Assembly: GCA_007694945.1 (NCBI GenBank)
Contig: REER01000077.1
Location: 108,165-172,164 of the forward strand
Direction: 5' to 3'
Length of the DNA stretch: 64,000 nucleotides
Source of the DNA: Paracoccaceae bacterium
Lineage (GTDB): Bacteria; Pseudomonadota; Alphaproteobacteria; Rhodobacterales; Rhodobacteraceae
Positions 7,170 to 40,874 of this stretch are shown here, in pieces. The notes below the pieces were generated by a model that was given only the letters and a program-made list of their open reading frames with translations, was not told the origin of the DNA and ran no database searches. Position 1 is the stretch's first letter; each line of letters opens with the position of its first letter. The position numbers and the translations under genes were made by a program.

Positions 7170-8876
7170 ATGCCCTATCGCGCGCCCCTCACCGATTTCA
7201 GCTTCCTGCTCGATCAGATCGTCGATTTCGACAAGGTTCGCGCGACTGAGCGCTTTGCCGAGGCCACGCCCGAGACCACCGATGCGATCCTGACTGAAGC
7301 CGCACGGCTCTGCGAAGAGGTCATGGCCCCGCTCAACCGCACAGGCGATCTGCACCCGGCGAGATTGGAGAACGGGGTGGTACGGACCCCACCGGGCTTT
7401 GCCGAGGGCCATCGCGCCATTGCCGAGGGCGGCTGGCTGGGCATCGCCGCGGCGCCCGAGTATGGCGGCATGGGACTGCCGCAGACACTCGCCAGCGCGG
7501 TCAACGACATGATGTCGGCGGCCTGCCTAGCTTTGCAGGTCAACCCCTTGCTGTCGCTGGGGCAGATCGAGGCGCTGGAGCATCATGCCAGTGACGAGAT
7601 CAAGGCGCTCTATCTGCCCAAGCTGATTTCTGGCGAATGGACCGGCACGATGAACCTGACCGAACCTGAAGCTGGCTCTGATGTGGGGGCGCTGCGGACC
7701 AAGGCCGAGCCCAATCAGGACGGCAGCTATGCGATCACGGGGCAGAAGATCTACATCACATGGGGGGACCATGATTTCGGCGGCAATGTCTGCCATCTGG
7801 TGCTCGCGCGCCTGCCCGACGGAGCACCGGGCACCAAGGGGATCAGCCTCTTCATGGTGCCCAAGCTGCTGCCAGATGCGAATGGCAATCCGGGCGAGCG
7901 GAATGCGCTGCGCGTGGTCTCGCTCGAGCACAAGCTGGGCCTGCATGGCTCGCCCACGGCGGTAATGGCATATGACCGCGCCACAGGCTGGCTTGTCGGC
8001 GAGGAACATGGCGGCATGGCGGCGATGTTCACCATGATGAATAATGCCCGCGTCGGTGTGGGAGTGCAGGGTATCGGCATTGCCGAAGGTGCCTATCAGC
8101 ACGCGCTGCATTACGCGCAGGAACGTCGACAGGGCCGCACGCCGTGCTCGGCCAAGGGCGCGATCATCGAACATGTCGATGTGCGCCGGATGCTGGCGGT
8201 CATGAAAGCCGAGATTTTCGCAATCCGGGCCATCGCGCTGGCCAATTCGGTCGCAATCGACATGGCCACAGCCACCGGCTCGGAGGACTGGGCCGCGCGG
8301 GCAGCATTCTTGACTCCGATCACCAAGGCCCATGGCACGGATATCGGCATCGAAGTGGCAAATCTGGGCATCCAGATCCATGGCGGGATGGGCTTTGTCG
8401 AGGAAACGGGTGCCGCGCAATATCTGCGAGATGTCCGAGTGACGGCGATCTATGAGGGCACCAATGGCATTCAGGCCATGGATCTGGTCGCGCGCAAGAT
8501 GATGGACAGCGGAGAGGCCGCCTTCCGCCTGTTGCAGGAGATCGAAGACTGCGCAGAGGCCGCCCGCGCCGTGCTGCCCGATCTGGCCGAAGAGGTCTGG
8601 CAGGCCGCCGAATCACTGCGCGAGACTACCGAATGGCTTCTGGCCCAGGAGCTTAATGAGCGTTTTGCAGGTGCGACCGCCTATCTGCGCGCCTTCGCCC
8701 GCGTTCTGGGGTCTCATTACCACCTGAAAGCTGCGCTGACCGAGGATGGCGCGCGCCGGGCTCTTGCGCGCGTGTTCATATTCCGTATTCTGCCCGAGCA
8801 TGTCGGGCTCCTGGCACAAGCACGCGCCGGGGCCGATTGTCTCTATGCCCTTTCGGATGATGATCTCGCAGCATGA
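7170..8876 (+). CDS. Acyl-CoA dehydrogenase, DmdC-like
   Basis: A 568-residue FAD-dependent acyl-CoA dehydrogenase with the extra C-terminal domain seen in long family members such as 3-methylmercaptopropionyl-CoA dehydrogenase DmdC. It starts MPYRAPLTDFSFLLDQIVDF, typical of that group. FAD/substrate motifs TMNLTEPEAGSDVGALRTKA (about residue 155) and the segment YEGTNGIQAMDLVARK with the predicted catalytic Glu (about 428) are present. Its stop overlaps the start of the MBL-fold gene (ATGA), so the two are co-translated. Rhodobacterales carry several DmdC paralogs, so the substrate could be another short or branched acyl-CoA. Confidence 0.85.
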   Translation: MPYRAPLTDFSFLLDQIVDFDKVRATERFAEATPETTDAILTEAARLCEEVMAPLNRTGDLHPARLENGVVRTPPGFAEGHRAIAEGGWLGIAAAPEYGGMGLPQTLASAVNDMMSAACLALQVNPLLSLGQIEALEHHASDEIKALYLPKLISGEWTGTMNLTEPEAGSDVGALRTKAEPNQDGSYAITGQKIYITWGDHDFGGNVCHLVLARLPDGAPGTKGISLFMVPKLLPDANGNPGERNALRVVSLEHKLGLHGSPTAVMAYDRATGWLVGEEHGGMAAMFTMMNNARVGVGVQGIGIAEGAYQHALHYAQERRQGRTPCSAKGAIIEHVDVRRMLAVMKAEIFAIRAIALANSVAIDMATATGSEDWAARAAFLTPITKAHGTDIGIEVANLGIQIHGGMGFVEETGAAQYLRDVRVTAIYEGTNGIQAMDLVARKMMDSGEAAFRLLQEIEDCAEAARAVLPDLAEEVWQAAESLRETTEWLLAQELNERFAGATAYLRAFARVLGSHYHLKAALTEDGARRALARVFIFRILPEHVGLLAQARAGADCLYALSDDDLAA

Positions 8877-10758: not shown

Positions 10759-11403
10759 ATGATCCCAAGGATGACGCGCCGCTTGATGGCGCTGTTGCTG
10801 CTGTTGTCGCTCGCGATCACCACGCTCTCTGCCTGTGGTGACAGGGGTGCGTGGGCCAGTGACGACGTTATCCAGGCCGCGCGCCATGTCCATGGCGGAC
10901 AGCCCGAGTTGACTTTGGTCACGATCCTGCACCGCGAAACCCATCGCGGCGAACATACCGGCCTTTTTATAAACGGTCGTGAGCGTGTGATCTTCGACCC
11001 CGCAGGCAGCTGGCGGCTGCCGGATCACGCGCTGCGCGGCGATGTGGTCTTCGGCATGACCAAGGGCGCGGGACTGTCCTATTACATGACCCATGTCCGC
11101 GAGACGCATTACGCTGTCGTCCAGCGGGTGCCGGTCAGTGACGAGGTGGCCGAGCAGGCGCTGGCCCTTGCGCTGGAGACCGGATCGGTCAGCGCAGGGT
11201 TTTGCGCTGCCTCGACCTCGGGGGTGCTGCGGCAATTGCCAGGCTTTGAGACTGTGCGCCGAACCTTCTTTCCCCAGACTCTGATGCGCAGTTTTGCCGA
11301 GATCCCGGGCGTGCAGACTCATGAGCTTCACCATAATGACCCGGATGTGCAGCGCAAGGCTTGGCGCGTGCAGGAACCGTTAAGCACTGTCGCCGCGTTC
11401 TGA
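10759..11403 (+). CDS. Lipoprotein, candidate permuted papain-like enzyme (copy B)
   Basis: A 214-residue paralog of the protein at 9910. The signal peptide ends in a lipobox (LSAC). Shared blocks are EHTGLFINGRERVIFDPAG (His strand), VSDEVAEQALALALETG and FCAASTSGVLRQLPGFE (Cys helix). Conservation of the His and Cys in both copies despite low overall identity argues for a catalytic dyad of the permuted papain-like type. The C-terminal ~40 residues (HELHHNDPDVQRKAW) are less alike. Function is unknown. It probably sits in one transcript with the oxidase subunit IV gene 36 bp upstream. Confidence 0.68.
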   Translation: MIPRMTRRLMALLLLLSLAITTLSACGDRGAWASDDVIQAARHVHGGQPELTLVTILHRETHRGEHTGLFINGRERVIFDPAGSWRLPDHALRGDVVFGMTKGAGLSYYMTHVRETHYAVVQRVPVSDEVAEQALALALETGSVSAGFCAASTSGVLRQLPGFETVRRTFFPQTLMRSFAEIPGVQTHELHHNDPDVQRKAWRVQEPLSTVAAF

Positions 11404-12208: not shown

Positions 12209-15085
12209 ATGTCCGAGCAGAAATTCATCGAAGTGCGCGGCGCGCGCGAGCATAATTTGAAGAATATCGACGTGATCCTGCCCCGCGACCAGTTGGTGGT
12301 GATCACTGGACTGTCGGGTTCGGGCAAATCCTCGCTGGCCTTTGACACGATCTATGCCGAGGGGCAGCGGCGCTACGTCGAGAGCCTCAGCGCCTATGCG
12401 CGCCAGTTCCTCGACATGATGCAGAAGCCCGATATGGACCATATCTCGGGCCTCTCACCCGCGATTTCGATCGAGCAGAAGACGACGTCGAAAAACCCCC
12501 GCTCGACGGTCGGTACCGTGACCGAGATTTACGATTATCTGCGGCTGTTATTCGCGCGCGCGGGCACGCCCTACAGCCCTGCCACGGGTCTGCCGATCGA
12601 GGCGCAGCAGGTGCAGGACATGGTCGACCGCATCATGGCGCTGGAAGAGGGTACCCGTGCCTATCTGCTGGCCCCCATCGTGCGTGACCGCAAGGGCGAG
12701 TATCGCAAGGAGTTTATGGAACTGCGCAAGCAAGGCTTCCAGCGCGTCAAAGTGGATGGGAAGTTCTACGAGCTGGATGAGCCACCCACGCTCGACAAGA
12801 AGTTCCGCCATGACATTGATGTGGTGGTGGACCGGCTGGTCGTGCGTGAAGGCATGGAGACGCGGCTGGCCGATTCACTGCGCACGGCGCTGGATCTGGC
12901 GGACGGCATTGCCGTGCTGGAAGAGGCGAAGGAAGAGGGTGAGCGCATTACCTTTTCCGAGAAATTTGCCTGTCCGGTCAGTGGGTTCACCATTTCCGAG
13001 ATCGAGCCGCGGCTGTTCTCCTTCAACGCGCCGACAGGGGCCTGCCCGGCCTGCGACGGGCTGGGGGTGGAGCTTTTCTTTGACGAAAGGCTTGTCGTGC
13101 CGGACCTGTCCCTGCGGCTGGCCGATGGCGCGATTGCGCCGTGGCGCAAGGGCAAATCGCCCTATTTCCTGCAAACCATCGAGTCGCTCGCCCGCCATTA
13201 TGAGTTCGACGCGAAAGCCCCCTGGAAGGACCTGCCCGCGCATGTGAAACAAGTGCTGCTCTATGGCTCCAATGGTGAAGAGCTGCCCTTCCGCTATGAT
13301 GAGGGCGGTCGGGTCTATAACGTGACGCGCGCTTTCGAGGGCGTCATCCCGAATATGGAGCGGCGCTATCGCGAAACGGATTCGGCCTGGATTCGCGAGG
13401 AGTTCGAGCGCTACCAGAACCAGCGCGCCTGTGGCGTCTGCGAGGGGCATCGTTTGCGGCCCGAGGCGCTGGCCGTGAAGATCGGTCCCGCCAAAGGCGG
13501 GCCTGACAAACTTCTGCATATCGGGCAGGTCACCGAAATGTCGATCCGCGAGGCGCTGACATGGGTGGAGGGCGTGCCAGAGGCGCTCTCGAAGCAGAAG
13601 AACGAGATCGCCCGCGCGATCCTTAAGGAAATCCGCGAGCGGCTGGGATTTCTGGTCAATGTGGGGCTGGATTACCTGACGCTCGGGCGGCATGCGGGCA
13701 CGCTCTCGGGGGGTGAGAGCCAGCGGATCAGGCTTGCGAGCCAGATCGGGTCGGGGCTGACCGGGGTGCTCTATGTGCTCGATGAGCCCTCGATTGGGCT
13801 GCACCAGCGCGACAATGACCGCTTGCTGACCACACTCAGGAACCTGCGCGATCAGGGCAACACCGTGATCGTGGTCGAGCATGACGAAGAGGCGATTCGC
13901 ACTGCTGACCATGTGCTTGATATCGGCCCTGGTGCAGGCGTTCATGGCGGTCAGATCGTGGCCGAAGGCACGCCGGATCAGATCATGGCCGACCCGGCGA
14001 GCCTGACGGGGCAGTATCTGAGTGGCACGCGCGAGATCCCGGTGCCGAAAACGCGGCGCAAGGGCAACGGCAAGAAACTTACTGTGGTCAAGGCGAACGG
14101 GAATAATCTGCGCGATGTGACCGTCGATTTTCCGCTGGGCAAATTCGTCTGCGTGACCGGGGTGTCAGGGGGCGGTAAATCCACGCTAACCATCGAGACC
14201 CTGTTCAAGACCGCCTCGATGCGGCTCAACGGCGCGCGCCAGACGCCCGCGCCCTGCGAGACGATCAAGGGACTGGAGCAACTCGACAAGGTGATCGATA
14301 TCGACCAGCGCCCTATCGGACGCACACCGCGTTCTAACCCGGCGACTTATACTGGCGCGTTCGGCCCGATCCGCGACTGGTTCGCCGGGCTGCCGGAAGC
14401 GCGGGCGCGCGGCTACAAGCCGGGACGGTTTTCCTTCAACGTCAAGGGCGGGCGGTGCGAGGCCTGTCAGGGTGACGGGGTGCTGAAGATCGAGATGAAT
14501 TTCCTGCCTGATGTCTATGTCACCTGCGAGACCTGCAAGGGCAAGCGCTACAACCGCGAGACGCTGGAGGTTTTGTTCAAGGGTAAATCAATCGCCGATG
14601 TGCTGGACATGACTGTGGAAGAGGCGCAGGGGTTTTTCGAGGCTGTGCCGTCGATCCGCGAGAAGATGGACGCGCTGATGCGGGTGGGCTTGGGCTATAT
14701 CAAGGTGGGCCAGCAGGCGACCACCCTCTCGGGGGGCGAGGCGCAGCGGGTGAAACTGTCGAAGGAGTTGTCGCGCCGCTCAACGGGCCGGACATTGTAC
14801 ATTCTCGATGAACCCACAACCGGGCTGCATTTCGAGGATGTCCGCAAGCTTCTGGAAGTGCTGCACGAATTGGTTGAGCAGGGAAATACGGTCATCGTGA
14901 TCGAGCACAATCTCGATGTGATCAAGACAGCGGACTGGATCATCGACATTGGCCCCGAGGGCGGCGATGGCGGTGGGCAGATTGTGGCCACCGGCACGCC
15001 CGAAGAGGTGGCGGCAGTCGCGGCGAGCCATACCGGGCGCTATCTGGCGCCGATGCTGGGCGCGCGCCGCGTGGCGGCGGAATAG
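12209..15085 (+). CDS. uvrA: Excinuclease ABC subunit A
   Basis: 958 residues from the ATG at 12209 ([20 protein letters not shown]); the ORF-track extension to 12137 is rejected because it reads through the promoter. It has two ABC ATPase modules: Walker [13 protein letters not shown] (about 34) and [10 protein letters not shown] (about 651), with signature [12 protein letters not shown] and [12 protein letters not shown]. Zinc-binding cysteines occur in CPACDGLG and CEACQGDG...[10 protein letters not shown]; the first finger starts CPVSG, with Ser for the usual second Cys. UvrA finds bulky lesions and loads UvrB in nucleotide excision repair. The upstream LexA box implies SOS induction. Confidence 0.97.
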
Positions 15086-33695: not shown

Positions 33696-34475
33696 TCAGA
33701 GCACCCGCTCGACCATCTGTTTCTTGATCTCGGTGATCGCCTTGGCCGGGTTGAGACCCTTGGGGCAGGTCTTGGCGCAATTCATGATCGTGTGACAGCG
33801 ATAGAGTTTGAAAGGATCGTGCAGATCGTCCAGCCGTTCGCCTGTCGCCTCGTCGCGCGAATCGATGATCCAGCGATAGGCATGCAGCAGAGCGGCGGGC
33901 CCAAGGTAGCGGTCGCCATTCCACCAGTAAGACGGGCAGGCGGTGGAGCAGCAGGCGCACATCACGCATTCATAGAGCCCGTCGAGTTTCTCGCGATCCT
34001 CAATCGACTGCTTCCACTCTTTTGCGGGTGTGTTCGACTTGGTCTCGAGCCAGGGTTTGATCGAGGCATGCTGCGCGTAGAAATGCGTCAGGTCCGGTAC
34101 CAGATCCTTGACCACCGGCATATGGGGCAGGGGGTAGATCTTCACATCGCCCTTAACCTCATCCATGCCGAAGATGCAGGCGAGATGGTTCTGCCCGTCG
34201 ATATTCATCGCGCAGGAGCCGCAGATCCCCTCGCGGCAGGAGCGGCGGAAGGTCAGGGTCGGGTCGATCTTGGTCTTGATATAGATCAGCGCGTCCAGAA
34301 CCATCGGCCCACAATCGTCGAGATCGACGAAATAGGTATCCACCTGCGGGTTCTTCCCGTCATCCGGGTTCCAGCGATAGATCTGGAACTTGCGCAGCTT
34401 GCCCCCGGTCTCGGGTTTCGGCCAGGTCTTGCCGGTGCGCATCTGGCTGTTCTTGGGAAGGGAAAACTGAACCAT
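33696..34475 (-). CDS. sdhB: Succinate dehydrogenase iron-sulfur subunit
   Basis: 259 residues. The N-terminal 2Fe-2S domain has [21 protein letters not shown]; the C-terminal domain has [12 protein letters not shown] and [11 protein letters not shown] for the 4Fe-4S and 3Fe-4S clusters. It carries electrons from SdhA flavin to ubiquinone in the inner membrane. Last gene of the sdhC-sdhD-sdhA-(lipoprotein)-sdhB operon on the minus strand. Confidence 0.97.
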
Positions 34476-34484
34476 CTTGCTACC

Positions 34485-34799
34485 TCATATCAGGAACGGG
34501 GCGAGCCCGTCTTTCGCTAGACATCTAATCGTTTCCGGCCGCGTGGCAATCTCGGTCACGAGCGCCTGAGTCTCGGGGCTGAACGTTTGCTGACCTGCGG
34601 CCATTGCAAGGCGCGTGATCTCACCCGCGCTGGCATTGTCGATCACGCAATCGCTTGCAGGCTCCAACGGCACGCCGGGGAAGCGCTCGGCGAGCACTGG
34701 CCGGACCGAAGCGCGCGCAGCATCGCGTGCGATCTGATCCTGCACATCGGCGCAGGCTACCAGCGCCAGAAGCGCTGAGAGCGCGGCGAAGCGGCTCAA
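34485..34799 (-). CDS. Small lipoprotein embedded in sdh operon
   Basis: 104 residues from a TTG start that overlaps the sdhA stop (TTGA). The longer ATG version in the track would read antisense-like sequence inside sdhA. The signal peptide ends in a lipobox (ALVAC), and the mature part has two Cys (DCVIDNAS and TIRCLAKDG) that may form a disulfide. Position inside the operon suggests a link to complex II, but no function is known. sdhB starts 9 bases downstream. Confidence 0.7.
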
Positions 34800-36601
34800 T
34801 AGACCCGCGCCTTCGGCGCGATTTTCTTCAGGTCGATCCCGCCCTCTTCCAGCTTCGTCAGCGGCTCGGTCACAACAGGCCGATAGTCGAGCGAGACTTT
34901 CGCGCCATCGACCCAGGCCAGCGTATGCTTGCGCCATGTCTTGTCGTCGCGCTCGGGGTGGTCCTCCTGCGCATGCGCGCCGCGGCTTTCCTTGCGCGCC
35001 TCAGCCGAGACGATGGTCGTGAGCGCGCAGGGCATCAGGTTGTCGAGCTCCAGCGTCTCCATCAGATCCGAGTTCCAGATCAGCGAACGGTCAGTCACTT
35101 TCAGATCGCTCATATTGCCTGCAACTTCAGCCATCTTCTTGCAGCCCTCAGCCAGCGTCTTGTCAGTGCGGAAGACAGCGGCGTCTTCCTGCATCGTCTT
35201 CTGCATATCCGCCCGCAACTCAGCTGTTGGGACGCCACCATCCATATGGCGGAAACGGTCAAAGCGCTCTATGGCCTTGTCCACACTGGCCTTGTTCAGC
35301 GTCGGGTTGGGGGCCTGCGGGTCCACCACCTGACCGGCACGGATGGCCGCCGCGCGGCCAAACACCACAAGGTCAATCAGCGAGTTCGAGCCCAGCCGGT
35401 TCGCGCCATGTACGCTGGCGCAGGCGGCTTCACCCACGGCCATCAGACCAAGGGCGACGCGAGTCGGGTTCTCGGCATCGGCATTCAGCACCTCGCCCCA
35501 GTAATTGGTCGGAATCCCGCCCATGTTGTAATGCACGGTGGGCAGCACCGGGATCGGTTCCTTGGTGACATCCACCCCGGCAAAGACACGCGCACTTTCG
35601 GAAATGCCGGGCAGACGCAGCGCCAGCGTCTCGGGCGGCAGATGCGACAGGTTGAGGTGGATATGGTCCTTGTTCGGCCCAACGCCGCGCCCTTCGCGGA
35701 TTTCCATGGTCATGCAGCGTGACACCACATCGCGCGAGGCCAGATCCTTGTAGGTCGGCGCATAGCGCTCCATGAAGCGCTCACCCTCGGAATTGGTAAG
35801 ATACCCGCCCTCACCACGCGCGCCCTCTGTAATCAGACAGCCCGCGCCATAGATGCCGGTCGGGTGGAACTGCACGAATTCCATATCCTGCAGCGGCAGC
35901 CCTGCCCGCGCGATCATGCCATTGCCATCGCCGGTACAGGTATGCGCCGAGGTGGCCGAGAAATAGGCCCGCCCATAACCACCTGTCGCCAGCACCACCA
36001 TCTTGGCGCTGAACAGATGCAGCGAACCATCATCGAGCTTCCACGCCAGCACGCCCTGACACACGCCATCCTCGGACATGATCAGGTCGGTCGCGAAATA
36101 CTCGATATAGAACTCGGCCTTCTGCTTCAGGCTCTGCCCATAGAGCGTGTGCAGCATCGCATGGCCGGTCCGGTCAGCGGCGGCACAGGTGCGCTGCACC
36201 GGGGGGCCTTCGCCGAATTCGGTGGTGTGCCCGCCAAAGGGACGCTGATAGATTTTCCCTTCTTCAGTGCGCGAGAAGGGCACGCCGTAATGTTCGAGCT
36301 CATAAACCGCCTTGGGCGCCTCGCGGGCCAGATACTCCATCGCATCGGTGTCGCCCAGCCAGTCCGACCCCTTGACCGTGTCATACATATGCCACTGCCA
36401 GTGATCCGGCCCCATATTCGACAGCGAGGCGGCAATCCCGCCCTGCGCTGCCACGGTATGCGAGCGTGTCGGGAAAACCTTGGTCACACAGGCCGTCTTC
36501 AGCCCCTGTTCGGCCATGCCCAGAGTGGCGCGCAGCCCTGCGCCGCCAGCGCCCACGACCACCACATCATAGCTGTGTTCTTCGATTGAATATGCAGACA
36601 T
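34796..36601 (-). CDS. sdhA: Succinate dehydrogenase flavoprotein subunit
   Basis: 601 residues from the ATG at 36601 ([20 protein letters not shown]). FAD motif [19 protein letters not shown]; covalent flavin His in SHTVAAQGG; active-site blocks [20 protein letters not shown] and [18 protein letters not shown]. It oxidises succinate to fumarate in complex II and the TCA cycle. The track's 621-aa version adds 20 unsupported residues. Confidence 0.97.
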
Positions 36602-36611
36602 TTCTCTTCCT

Positions 36612-36992
36612 TCAGGCGCTGAACAGGACAGTGGCAACCGAGAGAACCCCGGCCACACCAAGGGCCCAGCACAGCAGGGTATTGACCAACAGCGCCGCCG
36701 TGCGCGCGACCTTCCCAGAGAGGTAGTCTTCGATCACGACCTGCAAGCCCTGTTGCAGGTGACTGAATGCCGCAATGATGAAGAGCACTGCCACCAGCGC
36801 ATGCCAGAGGTTGGAATAGGTGGCAACGAACGCCTCATGCCCGCCCCCCAGTGCGCGCCCGAAAGGGAAGATGAACAAAAAGGTCAACGGAATTAGCGCG
36901 ATCGACGTAATGCGCTGGCTCCACCAGTGATGCAGCCCCTCTCCAGCAGCGCCGTGGCCGTGAACGCGGGCGTAATCGGTCTTGAATCCCAT
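36612..36992 (-). CDS. sdhD: Succinate dehydrogenase membrane anchor subunit
   Basis: 126 residues with three membrane helices. [17 protein letters not shown] carries the haem-ligand His and quinone-site Asp-Tyr of SdhD. It anchors complex II with SdhC. 10 bp separate it from sdhA. Confidence 0.95.
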
Positions 36993-37005: not shown

Positions 37006-37389
37006 TCAGACGATGATGATGGTCAGAAACGTCAGCACAACCGTGCCGGCAAAGACGGCATAGCTCGATTTTTCAACCGTCTCGACATCCATGAAGCGGC
37101 CCGTATCCCAGACCAGATGGCGGATGGAGTTGAGCATGTGATACCAGAGCGCCGCCAGCGAGCCGATCAGGATCAGATGGCCGAGGATCGAGGTCAGCAG
37201 CCCATCAACGAAGTTGAAATATTCCGCACTGAACGCGCCCGCCGCAAACCACCACACAATCAGCACGGCGGCCAGCGTCATACCCACACCCGTGATCCGG
37301 TTCAGGATCGAGGTGATCGCCGCCATTGGCAGGCGATAGACTTGCAGATGGGGGGATAGCGGGCGATTGCCCCGGTTTACATCGGCCAT
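37006..37389 (-). CDS. sdhC: Succinate dehydrogenase cytochrome b556 subunit
   Basis: 127 residues from the ATG at 37389 (MADVNRGNRPLSPHLQVYRL); the track extension to 37464 is not needed. Family signatures RPLSPHLQVYRLP, SILNRITGVGM and WYHMLNSIRHLVWDTG (haem His) are present, with three membrane helices. First gene of the sdh operon. Confidence 0.95.
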   Translation of the reverse strand: MADVNRGNRPLSPHLQVYRLPMAAITSILNRITGVGMTLAAVLIVWWFAAGAFSAEYFNFVDGLLTSILGHLILIGSLAALWYHMLNSIRHLVWDTGRFMDVETVEKSSYAVFAGTVVLTFLTIIIV

Positions 37390-37544
37390 GGATGGCTCCC
37401 TTCGCTCTGGTGCGGCTGCGCTCACGCAGCCTTGCTCCGTATGCCTTGACATACTGGTTTTCACAGCAATGTCACGCCTGCAGGTGCCCTAATCGCGCAA
37501 AAAAACGAAAAACCATGGGCTGGCTTGGCAACTGAATGGGGTTT

Positions 37545-37595
37545 GTGATCACGCCAGCAAATTTCGTGATCACAATCTAAACCGGGCGTGATCAC
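37545..37595. promoter_or_regulatory. Three GTGATCAC palindromes upstream of sdhC
   Basis: Perfect copies of GTGATCAC at 37545, 37566 and 37588, spaced 21 and 22 bp, so all face one side of the helix. They sit 156-206 bp before the sdhC start codon, in the only intergenic gap of the operon. This looks like a cooperative operator for a dimeric regulator; the protein is not identified. Confidence 0.6.
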
Positions 37596-37632
37596 CCAGC
37601 TTCAAGTTGCCCGACTCAACCCTATGCGTAGC

Positions 37633-38067
37633 TTATCTCAATTCGTCCAGAACAGCGGTCACGGTCGAGTTGTAATTGAAATACACGAGCTGCATCGAGC
37701 CGCGTATCATGACTCCGGTCAGCAGCAAAGTAATCGGCCCGCGCATGTCGTCGCGGAAATACATCGTGATCTCCTGCCTAAAGGCCGGTTTTTCGTCGCG
37801 TACCAGAACAGTCTGACAGCGATGGAATCCCTCGGGAAACAACTCGTCCATGACCCCGAAATAGGCCTCATAATTCTCGACCTCGTGCTCCAGCATCGGC
37901 CCCGAGGATTCCAGAAAGGTCATGTATTCGCCTTTCTTGAAATACGTTTTCAACTGCTCGAACAAGGGCCAACTATCCGGTGCCGCGCCGCAACTGAGTG
38001 TGCCTTGCCCGATGGCAGGCGCAGCGCTCGAAAGCGTCAGCACCGCTGCAAGAAAAAATGCCCTCAT
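37633..38067 (-). CDS. Secreted hypothetical protein
   Basis: 144 residues with a signal peptide (MRAFFLAAVLTLSSAAPAIGQ). The mature protein of about 123 residues has two Cys (LSCGAAP and FHRCQT) and an alpha/beta pattern ending MQLVYFNYNSTVTAVLDELR. I do not recognise the family. Located between mch and the sdh operator region on the same strand. Confidence 0.65.
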   Translation of the reverse strand: MRAFFLAAVLTLSSAAPAIGQGTLSCGAAPDSWPLFEQLKTYFKKGEYMTFLESSGPMLEHEVENYEAYFGVMDELFPEGFHRCQTVLVRDEKPAFRQEITMYFRDDMRGPITLLLTGVMIRGSMQLVYFNYNSTVTAVLDELR

Positions 38068-38129: not shown

Positions 38130-39155
38130 TCAAAGCGGCATCAGCACCCAGTAATCCAGATCGAGCAGCACATCAGGGTGGTATTTTCCATCCACCTTCA
38201 GCACTTCCGCCGCGCCCTTGGTCGCCACCAGCCGCAATCGCAGTGCCCCCACGCCCGGCGCTCCTGTTTCGGCACGGTCCAGAACCTCGGACCAGGCGCG
38301 GATCGTGTCGCCCGCGAAACAGGGGTTCGCATGACTGCCCGCGTTGATTGCCGCGATCATCTGCGCATTGGCGAGCCCGTTGAACGACAGTGCCCGCGCC
38401 ATCGAGATCACATGCCCGCCATAGATCAGCAGCTTGCTGTCCGGGCGCTGCGTGCGGTCGAAATGCACTTTCGAAGTGTTCTGCCATAGCCGCGTCGCCA
38501 GCATATGCTCTGCTTCCTCGACGGTCACACCATCGACATGGTTGATCACCTCACCGACAGAGTAATCGCCCCAGCGATGCGGCTCTCCAGCCTGCGCGAA
38601 GTCATAGCCCGTGAAATCCAGCCCCTCAGGCACCACCAGATCCGCCGCGGCCACTACCGGCGCAAGCTCCGGCACGACAGGCTCCGGGGCGGGCGCCGCT
38701 ACATCGCGCTTGCGCACCATCACCCAGCGGACATAGTCCAGTACCACTGCGCCGCGCTGGTTCTCACCCCGAGTGCGCACCCAGACCACGCCAGTCTTGC
38801 CATTCGAGTTCTCTTTCAGCCCGATCACCTCGGACCGGCTCACCAGCGTGTCGCCGGGATAGACCGGGGTATGAAACCGGCCCTCGGCATAGCCCAGATT
38901 GGCCACGGCATTCAGGCTGACATCGGGCACTGTCTTTCCAAAGACGACATGAAACGCGATCAGATCATCGACCGGGCTGGCTGGCAGACCACAGGCGCGC
39001 GCAAAAGCATCCGAGGAATAGAGCGCCCCGCGCGCCGGATAGAGCGCATGGTAAAACGCCCGTTCTCCGCCGGAGATGGTCCGGGGCACAGCATGCGCGA
39101 TCACCTGCCCGACCCGATAATCCTCGAAAAACCGCCCCGGATTCGTCTTGCTCAT
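38130..39155 (-). CDS. mch: Mesaconyl-CoA hydratase
   Basis: 341 residues, a double-hotdog MaoC-type hydratase: KTNPGRFFEDYRVGQVIAHA at the start, the ALYSSDAFARACGLPASPVD block and GGHVISMARALSFNGLANAQ in the second half. The sequence closely follows the Rhodobacter mesaconyl-C1-CoA hydratase. It interconverts mesaconyl-CoA and beta-methylmalyl-CoA in the ethylmalonyl-CoA pathway for acetyl-CoA assimilation without isocitrate lyase. Co-located with mcl2 and sdh, an arrangement I recall from Rhodobacter. Confidence 0.92.
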   Translation of the reverse strand: MSKTNPGRFFEDYRVGQVIAHAVPRTISGGERAFYHALYPARGALYSSDAFARACGLPASPVDDLIAFHVVFGKTVPDVSLNAVANLGYAEGRFHTPVYPGDTLVSRSEVIGLKENSNGKTGVVWVRTRGENQRGAVVLDYVRWVMVRKRDVAAPAPEPVVPELAPVVAAADLVVPEGLDFTGYDFAQAGEPHRWGDYSVGEVINHVDGVTVEEAEHMLATRLWQNTSKVHFDRTQRPDSKLLIYGGHVISMARALSFNGLANAQMIAAINAGSHANPCFAGDTIRAWSEVLDRAETGAPGVGALRLRLVATKGAAEVLKVDGKYHPDVLLDLDYWVLMPL

Positions 39156-40007: not shown

Positions 40008-40874
40008 TCACTCCGCCATTGCAGCGATGGCCTCGGCCCTCGCCAGAACCTGTTTCGCGGTCACAATATGCAGATTTTCGACGATCTTGCCATCCACAAC
40101 TGCCACGCCCTCGCCGCGCTCGGTTGCCGCGTCGAAGGCCGCGATCTGGCGGCGGGCAAGGTTGATCTCGCCCTCGGAAGGGGCAAAGACCTCATTGGCG
40201 ATTGCCAGTTGCGCAGGGTGGATCAGCGTCTTGCCGTCAAAGCCCATGTCGCGCCCCTGTTCGCATTCAGCGCGCAGACCCTCCGCGTCCTTGAAGGCGT
40301 TATAAACCCCGTCCACCGCGACAATCCCCGCCGCCTTGGCCGCGATCAGCGGCAGCTGCAGCGCCGTCAGCAGGGGCAGGCGATCAGTGCGGAAGCGCGC
40401 GCCCATGTCCTTGGCCAGATCATTCGTGCCCATGATGAACCCCGCCATGCGCGGCGCGCAGGCGATGGAATGGGCATTGAGCACGCCCATAGGCGATTCC
40501 ATCATCGCCCAGATCCGGGTTTCGGCGGTCTCGGGGCGGGCATCAAGCAGACGGGACAGCGCATCGACATCCGCGGCCTCGTCCACTTTCGGCAGCAGGA
40601 TCGCCTCGGGTCGGGTGCTGGCGATGACATCGAGATCGTCCGCCCCCCATTCGGTCGAGAGCGCGTTGATCCGGACCAACCGTGCCCGCGTGCCATAATC
40701 CAGTGTCTCGAGCGATTCAGCCAGCAGCTTACGGGCATTGGATTTTTCTTCGATGGCGACTGCGTCTTCCAGATCGAAGATGATGGCATCGGCGGCCAGT
40801 CCTGTGGCTTTCTCCAGCGCGCGCTCTTTAGAGCCGGGAATATACAGCACGGATCGGAACGGGCGCGTCTCCAT
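40008..40874 (-). CDS. mcl2: (3S)-malyl-CoA thioesterase, CitE-like
   Basis: 288 residues of the HpcH/HpaI-CitE family: RSVLYIPGSKERALEKATGL, IIFDLEDAVA (Mg site), RINALSTEWGADDL, MMESPMGVLNAHSIA and FIMGTNDLAKD. Length and neighbourhood (mch, sdh) fit Mcl2, which hydrolyses (3S)-malyl-CoA to malate in the ethylmalonyl-CoA pathway. The lyase Mcl1 is longer (about 318 residues). Assignment as thioesterase rather than lyase rests on context. Confidence 0.82.
   Translation of the reverse strand: METRPFRSVLYIPGSKERALEKATGLAADAIIFDLEDAVAIEEKSNARKLLAESLETLDYGTRARLVRINALSTEWGADDLDVIASTRPEAILLPKVDEAADVDALSRLLDARPETAETRIWAMMESPMGVLNAHSIACAPRMAGFIMGTNDLAKDMGARFRTDRLPLLTALQLPLIAAKAAGIVAVDGVYNAFKDAEGLRAECEQGRDMGFDGKTLIHPAQLAIANEVFAPSEGEINLARRQIAAFDAATERGEGVAVVDGKIVENLHIVTAKQVLARAEAIAAMAE

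Follow-up and report, generated by a model that had tools for sequence, protein, structure and literature searches.

Three perfect copies of the 8-bp palindrome GTGATCAC lie upstream of sdhC, the first gene of the sdhCDAB operon, in the genome analysed here (G000) and are very probably operators. We put the probability at about 0.88 that these palindromes are operators for a Rhodobacteraceae orthologue of AkgR, an FCD-type GntR regulator of TCA-cycle operons, whose dimers would be paired at whole helical turns and act on RNA polymerase. This reading draws on four things seen in the genome sequences themselves: the palindromes, how they are conserved, the way in which they and one GntR gene occur or are missing together, and the rule that governs their spacing. 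Within the window, by which we mean the whole 64 kb stretch of DNA that was analysed, the following features are of particular interest.

37545..37552, no strand assigned: proximal GTGATCAC palindrome, putative operator 1 of the ancestral pair; AAA follows on the minus strand and is kept before sdhC
37566..37573, no strand assigned: middle GTGATCAC palindrome (putative operator 2), 21 bp from the proximal copy, with which it forms the ancestral pair
37588..37595, no strand assigned: distal GTGATCAC palindrome, the third site, 22 bp from the middle copy and largely restricted to the Roseinatronobacter/Natronohydrobacter clade
37470..37475, minus strand: GTGACA, the predicted -35 element for sdhC; the block is conserved when the clade is aligned and lies 77 bp from where the proximal palindrome begins
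37448..37453, minus strand: TATGTC, the predicted -10 element for sdhC, also a conserved block, after a 16-bp spacer
37006..37389, minus strand: sdhC, succinate dehydrogenase cytochrome b subunit (Pfam Sdh_cyt, 1.9e-28), with its ATG at 37389
36612..36992, minus strand: sdhD, membrane anchor subunit (Pfam Sdh_cyt, 5.2e-14)
34796..36601, minus strand: sdhA, flavoprotein subunit (Pfam FAD_binding_2 and Succ_DH_flav_C)
33696..34475, minus strand: sdhB, iron-sulfur subunit (Pfam Fer2_3, 3.8e-33)

The three copies follow one another at start-to-start steps of 21 and 22 bp and reside 156-206 bp upstream of the sdhC ATG, a distance that the first-pass annotation had given correctly. Its claim that three perfect palindromes within 51 bp at such spacing are improbable by chance is borne out, as GTGATCAC occurred on average 1.13 times in shuffled windows, three copies within 51 bp are expected only about 3e-7 times per window, and not one of 100 first-order Markov windows (0/100) packed three copies of an 8-bp palindrome, of whatever sequence, into 60 bp. 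The sole further copy in the window is, as had also been noticed, the one in the uvrA region (12299-12306), where it reads as in-frame Val-Ile-Thr within a 982-codon open frame, and coding therefore accounts for it. Such capacity to encode Val-Ile-Thr, together with a genome frequency about twice that suggested by the window shuffles (a total of 114 copies in 3.18 Mb and 145 contigs), would be in keeping with a common 8-mer that recurs by chance or through coding. We regard that explanation of the array as vanishingly improbable, since the sdhC cluster is intergenic and far above chance, and since conservation at fixed spacing across the family and loss together with one gene, both presented below, already refute it.

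The surroundings of the array include, directly upstream on the minus strand (37633-38067), a gene whose 144-aa product has an N-terminus resembling a signal peptide and matches no Pfam family. Further sdh neighbours on the minus strand are mesaconyl-CoA hydratase-like and HpcH/HpaI (malyl-CoA lyase-like) genes (38130-39155 and 40008-40874), and a mesaconyl-CoA hydratase-like gene likewise adjoins sdhC in genome G103.

Nearly all of 80 Rhodobacteraceae sdhC loci carry the pair upstream of sdhC, with AAA after the proximal palindrome and T before the distal one of the pair. The spacing of the pair, measured in 73 loci, is 21 bp in 63 of them, 20 bp in 7, 22 bp in 2 and 23 bp in 1. Across 290 alphaproteobacterial genomes, the pair was found in all of the Rhodobacteraceae sampled (5/5) and in just two others. 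The array highlighted in the first-pass annotation is, thus, conserved in relatives, but the ancestral unit comprises two sites (37545 and 37566), the third being mostly lineage-specific. This third site is present in 12 loci of the Roseinatronobacter/Natronohydrobacter clade, within which named relatives place G000, with all three sites perfect in 8 of these, and in a degenerate form in two loci outside the clade; in G000 it would serve to lengthen the sdh array. Additionally, four loci (L051, L053, L062 and L066) have a proximal site that is one base off and a perfect distal site, and this combination of decayed and perfect sites suggests partial replacement.

Elsewhere in G000, where the regulon was sought by sequence pattern only, GTGATCAC pairs no more than 30 bp apart number four in the whole genome, including two at sdhC, one at sucC and one in a coding frame. 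The sucC pair sits in the mdh-sucC spacer with a spacing of 21 bp, as at sdhC, and its complete unit, TTTGTGATCAC-N13-GTGATCACAAA, is the same composite as the sdhC pair and is likewise found upstream of sucC among the Rhodobacteraceae sampled; it would serve sucC (succinyl-CoA synthetase) in the same manner. The coding-frame pair, with its copies 12 bp apart on contig C101, was rejected as an operator because of that location.

The candidate regulator is encoded at G000:C83:17435-18094, a gene for a protein of 220 aa with GntR and FCD domains, for which the closest solved structure by sequence is McbR (4p9f, 1.6e-19). We take RSP_0981 of R. sphaeroides to be AkgR, and we infer that the G000 protein is an AkgR orthologue that would bind at sdhC, perhaps cooperatively. 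Its start codon is directly preceded by TGTGATCACA, and of 73 GntR/FCD orthologues, 50 carry such a self-site palindrome (23 are without it), mostly 7-10 nt ahead of the start codon, with the next in-frame start called being nearer, or another codon, in a few orthologues. This lone palindrome would probably mediate autorepression. Three other copies of TGTGATCACA were rejected as operators, all being inside open frames and likely coding. In the light of these sites, the dimeric regulator of complex II put forward in the first-pass annotation stands in part: a palindrome binder, presumably dimeric and in helical register, is strongly supported, but its likely regulon also takes in sucC and the regulator's own gene.

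In G103, the GntR/FCD gene adjoins sdhB within the sdh/suc neighbourhood, an arrangement that agrees with the R. sphaeroides locus tags. With the 14 GntR-domain proteins of the genome as queries, no GntR gene was found in the DNA flanking the 80 sdhC loci, which was covered for up to 10 kb. A locus from another alphaproteobacterial family (L158; G049:C1:1120000-1139000) carries a 33%-identical GntR gene (approximately 7642-8256) about 2.5 kb from a 22-bp-spaced GTGATCAC pair (approximately 10809-10838) beside other genes; this gene is possibly a paralogous regulator retaining the same motif.

Orthologues of the GntR/FCD gene were found in 184 of 200 family genomes, a sample that holds nearly one genome per genus and in which sdhA was detected in 199. 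Gene and pair are both present in 182 genomes and both absent from 15, with the gene only in 2 and the pair only in 1, giving concordance in 197/200 (Fisher 1.5e-19, a value that ignores descent), and the count covers the AkgR-like gene alone among the GntR genes of the genome. The discordant genomes are G092 and G221, with the gene but without an exact pair, and G156, with the pair but without a detected gene. SdhA of G092 is in two pieces, with 92% vs 77% identity, on two contigs (G092:C17:94681-95778 and G092:C5:167683-168441), which suggests that the contigs are misassembled or the genome is mixed. No perfect site occurs within 400 bp upstream of sdhC in the 15 genomes that lack both gene and pair. 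Some genomes, among them G158, G136, G192 and G196, are pair-positive yet have no perfect site upstream of sdhC, and their pair therefore lies elsewhere. For two loci with no sites at either sdhC or sucC (L099 and L117), absence of the gene from the genome was predicted beforehand, and neither genome had a match, against 15/15 others.

The history of these absences was followed on a tree of SdhA and SdhC from 69 genomes, the SdhA-only tree being too poorly resolved. Joint absence takes 9 changes, of which supported branches account for at least 5, and the supported independent contrasts comprise 5 for, 0 against and 1 tie (sign test, p approximately 0.06, limited by the few losses). As reconstructed from these sequences, gene and paired sites have been lost jointly, several independent times.

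With 14 GntR-domain matches in the genome, the palindromes could instead be bound by another regulator of G000, such as the PdhR/LldR-like GntR protein at G000:C22:57978, the AkgR-like gene being merely a fellow target lost with the regulon. This is quite improbable in our view, as the AkgR-like gene alone has a palindrome right at its start that is conserved across genera, as it is this gene that neighbours sdhB in G103, and as the literature connects GTGATCAC with a GntR/AkgR protein (PMC6365646) and the R. sphaeroides GntR protein RSP_0981 with these operons (PMC4344238). CceR (RSP_1663), a LacI-family protein, is another predicted regulator of sdh in R. sphaeroides (PMC4344238); it was rejected as the sdhC regulator here, its motif GTT-N6-8-AAC being absent from 37390-37640.

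How an AkgR orthologue would act from these sites is suggested by their position relative to the predicted promoter. A block CGTGACA ... TATG upstream of sdhC is conserved in the clade and looks like a sigma-70-type promoter, and transcription would be expected to start near 37441. Measured from the proximal palindrome to the -35 element in 93 loci, the distance takes only the values 55, 65-68, 76-78, 86-88 and 97-98 bp; in 17 further pair-bearing loci, the same rule predicted no promoter. The 97-98 bp class proved to be mostly an artefact of measuring the middle and distal pair where the proximal site is degenerate, and after correction of such loci the distances in 68 loci are 55, 65-68, 76-78 and 86-88 bp, with one at 98 bp; the 93- and 68-locus samples may share genera, and the Rayleigh test on the spacing ignores descent. 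On the tree, the number of turns changes 13 times, with approximately 6 changes forced by supported branches for each of two main classes. No comparable periodicity was found in the operator-to-ATG and promoter-to-ATG distances. The distance from the sites to the predicted promoter is, thus, kept in whole helical turns across the family, and the simplest reading of this spacing is contact from one face of the DNA, such that the protein, once bound, has to be turned towards RNA polymerase. Across 70 sdhC loci, the DNA separating operator from promoter shows weakly conserved A/T tracts with a period of ~10 bp; they fall ~18-52 bp beyond the point where the proximal palindrome begins, are possibly phased and may aid bending.

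The first-pass annotation had raised looping in view of the distance to the start codon. What evolution has kept is the distance to the promoter (77 bp to the -35 element here) rather than that to the ATG, and it can therefore be explained without looping. The array might still act mainly via repression or longer-range DNA looping, for example through the third site, and not by same-face activation: three in-register sites could hold several dimers, some looping repressors are also expected to show whole-turn spacing, and the self-site ahead of the regulator's start codon looks repressive. We nevertheless consider this unlikely, given that the predicted promoter lies downstream of the sdhC sites and is not overlapped by them, that the third site is missing from most of the family, and that AkgR is termed an activator in PMC6365646. 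Activation rather than repression is what we infer for the source species.

Under the favoured reading, each 8-bp palindrome would be the site of one dimer, and two dimers 21 bp, or two helical turns, apart would occupy the same face of the DNA. The paired dimers, located whole turns upstream of the sdhC promoter, would then act on RNA polymerase there. We further lean towards a more specific version, in which an AkgR-type activator works from dimer sites in tandem, and evolution alters the distance between these sites and the sdhC promoter only by whole turns (~55, 66, 77 and 87 bp), the Roseinatronobacter clade having gained a third site two turns farther out and the proximal site having since decayed in some members. 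If true, nature would thereby have supplied a graded set of spacings on which to test whether a GntR protein activates at a distance in a face-dependent way.

Both the type of site and the kind of regulator are already known, and the sdhC array adds another case. AkgR of R. sphaeroides is described as an activator with GTGATCAC among its sites (PMC6365646), and RSP_0981 is a GntR regulator predicted to control sucCD, sdh and sucAB (2-oxoglutarate dehydrogenase) (PMC4344238). The present system resembles this regulon in having GTGATCAC upstream of the regulated operon (in three copies at sdhC), in paired sites at sdhC and sucC that match the predicted sdh and sucCD/sucAB targets, and in a GntR-family gene, here with an FCD domain, that travels with the sites. 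Unlike the AkgR regulon as described there, it features a clade-specific third sdhC site, a putative self-operator and whole-turn promoter spacing; no mention of these was found in the literature consulted, the primary AkgR paper may report some of them, and the whole-turn rule at sdhC is possibly unreported. PS417_07240 of Pseudomonas simiae, a GntR regulator of deoxyribonate catabolism that is 32% identical to AkgR, is likewise a proposed binder of GTGATCAC (PMC6365646), but there a catabolic cluster has one site only, at -47 to -40, and both the genes and the bacteria are different.

The whole-turn series makes it possible to test directly how RNA polymerase is reached by a regulator of this type. 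Further, these results indicate that the GntR regulator and its putative paired operators form a conserved module that has been lost whole several times, and that would link the expression of succinyl-CoA synthetase and succinate dehydrogenase across the Rhodobacteraceae.
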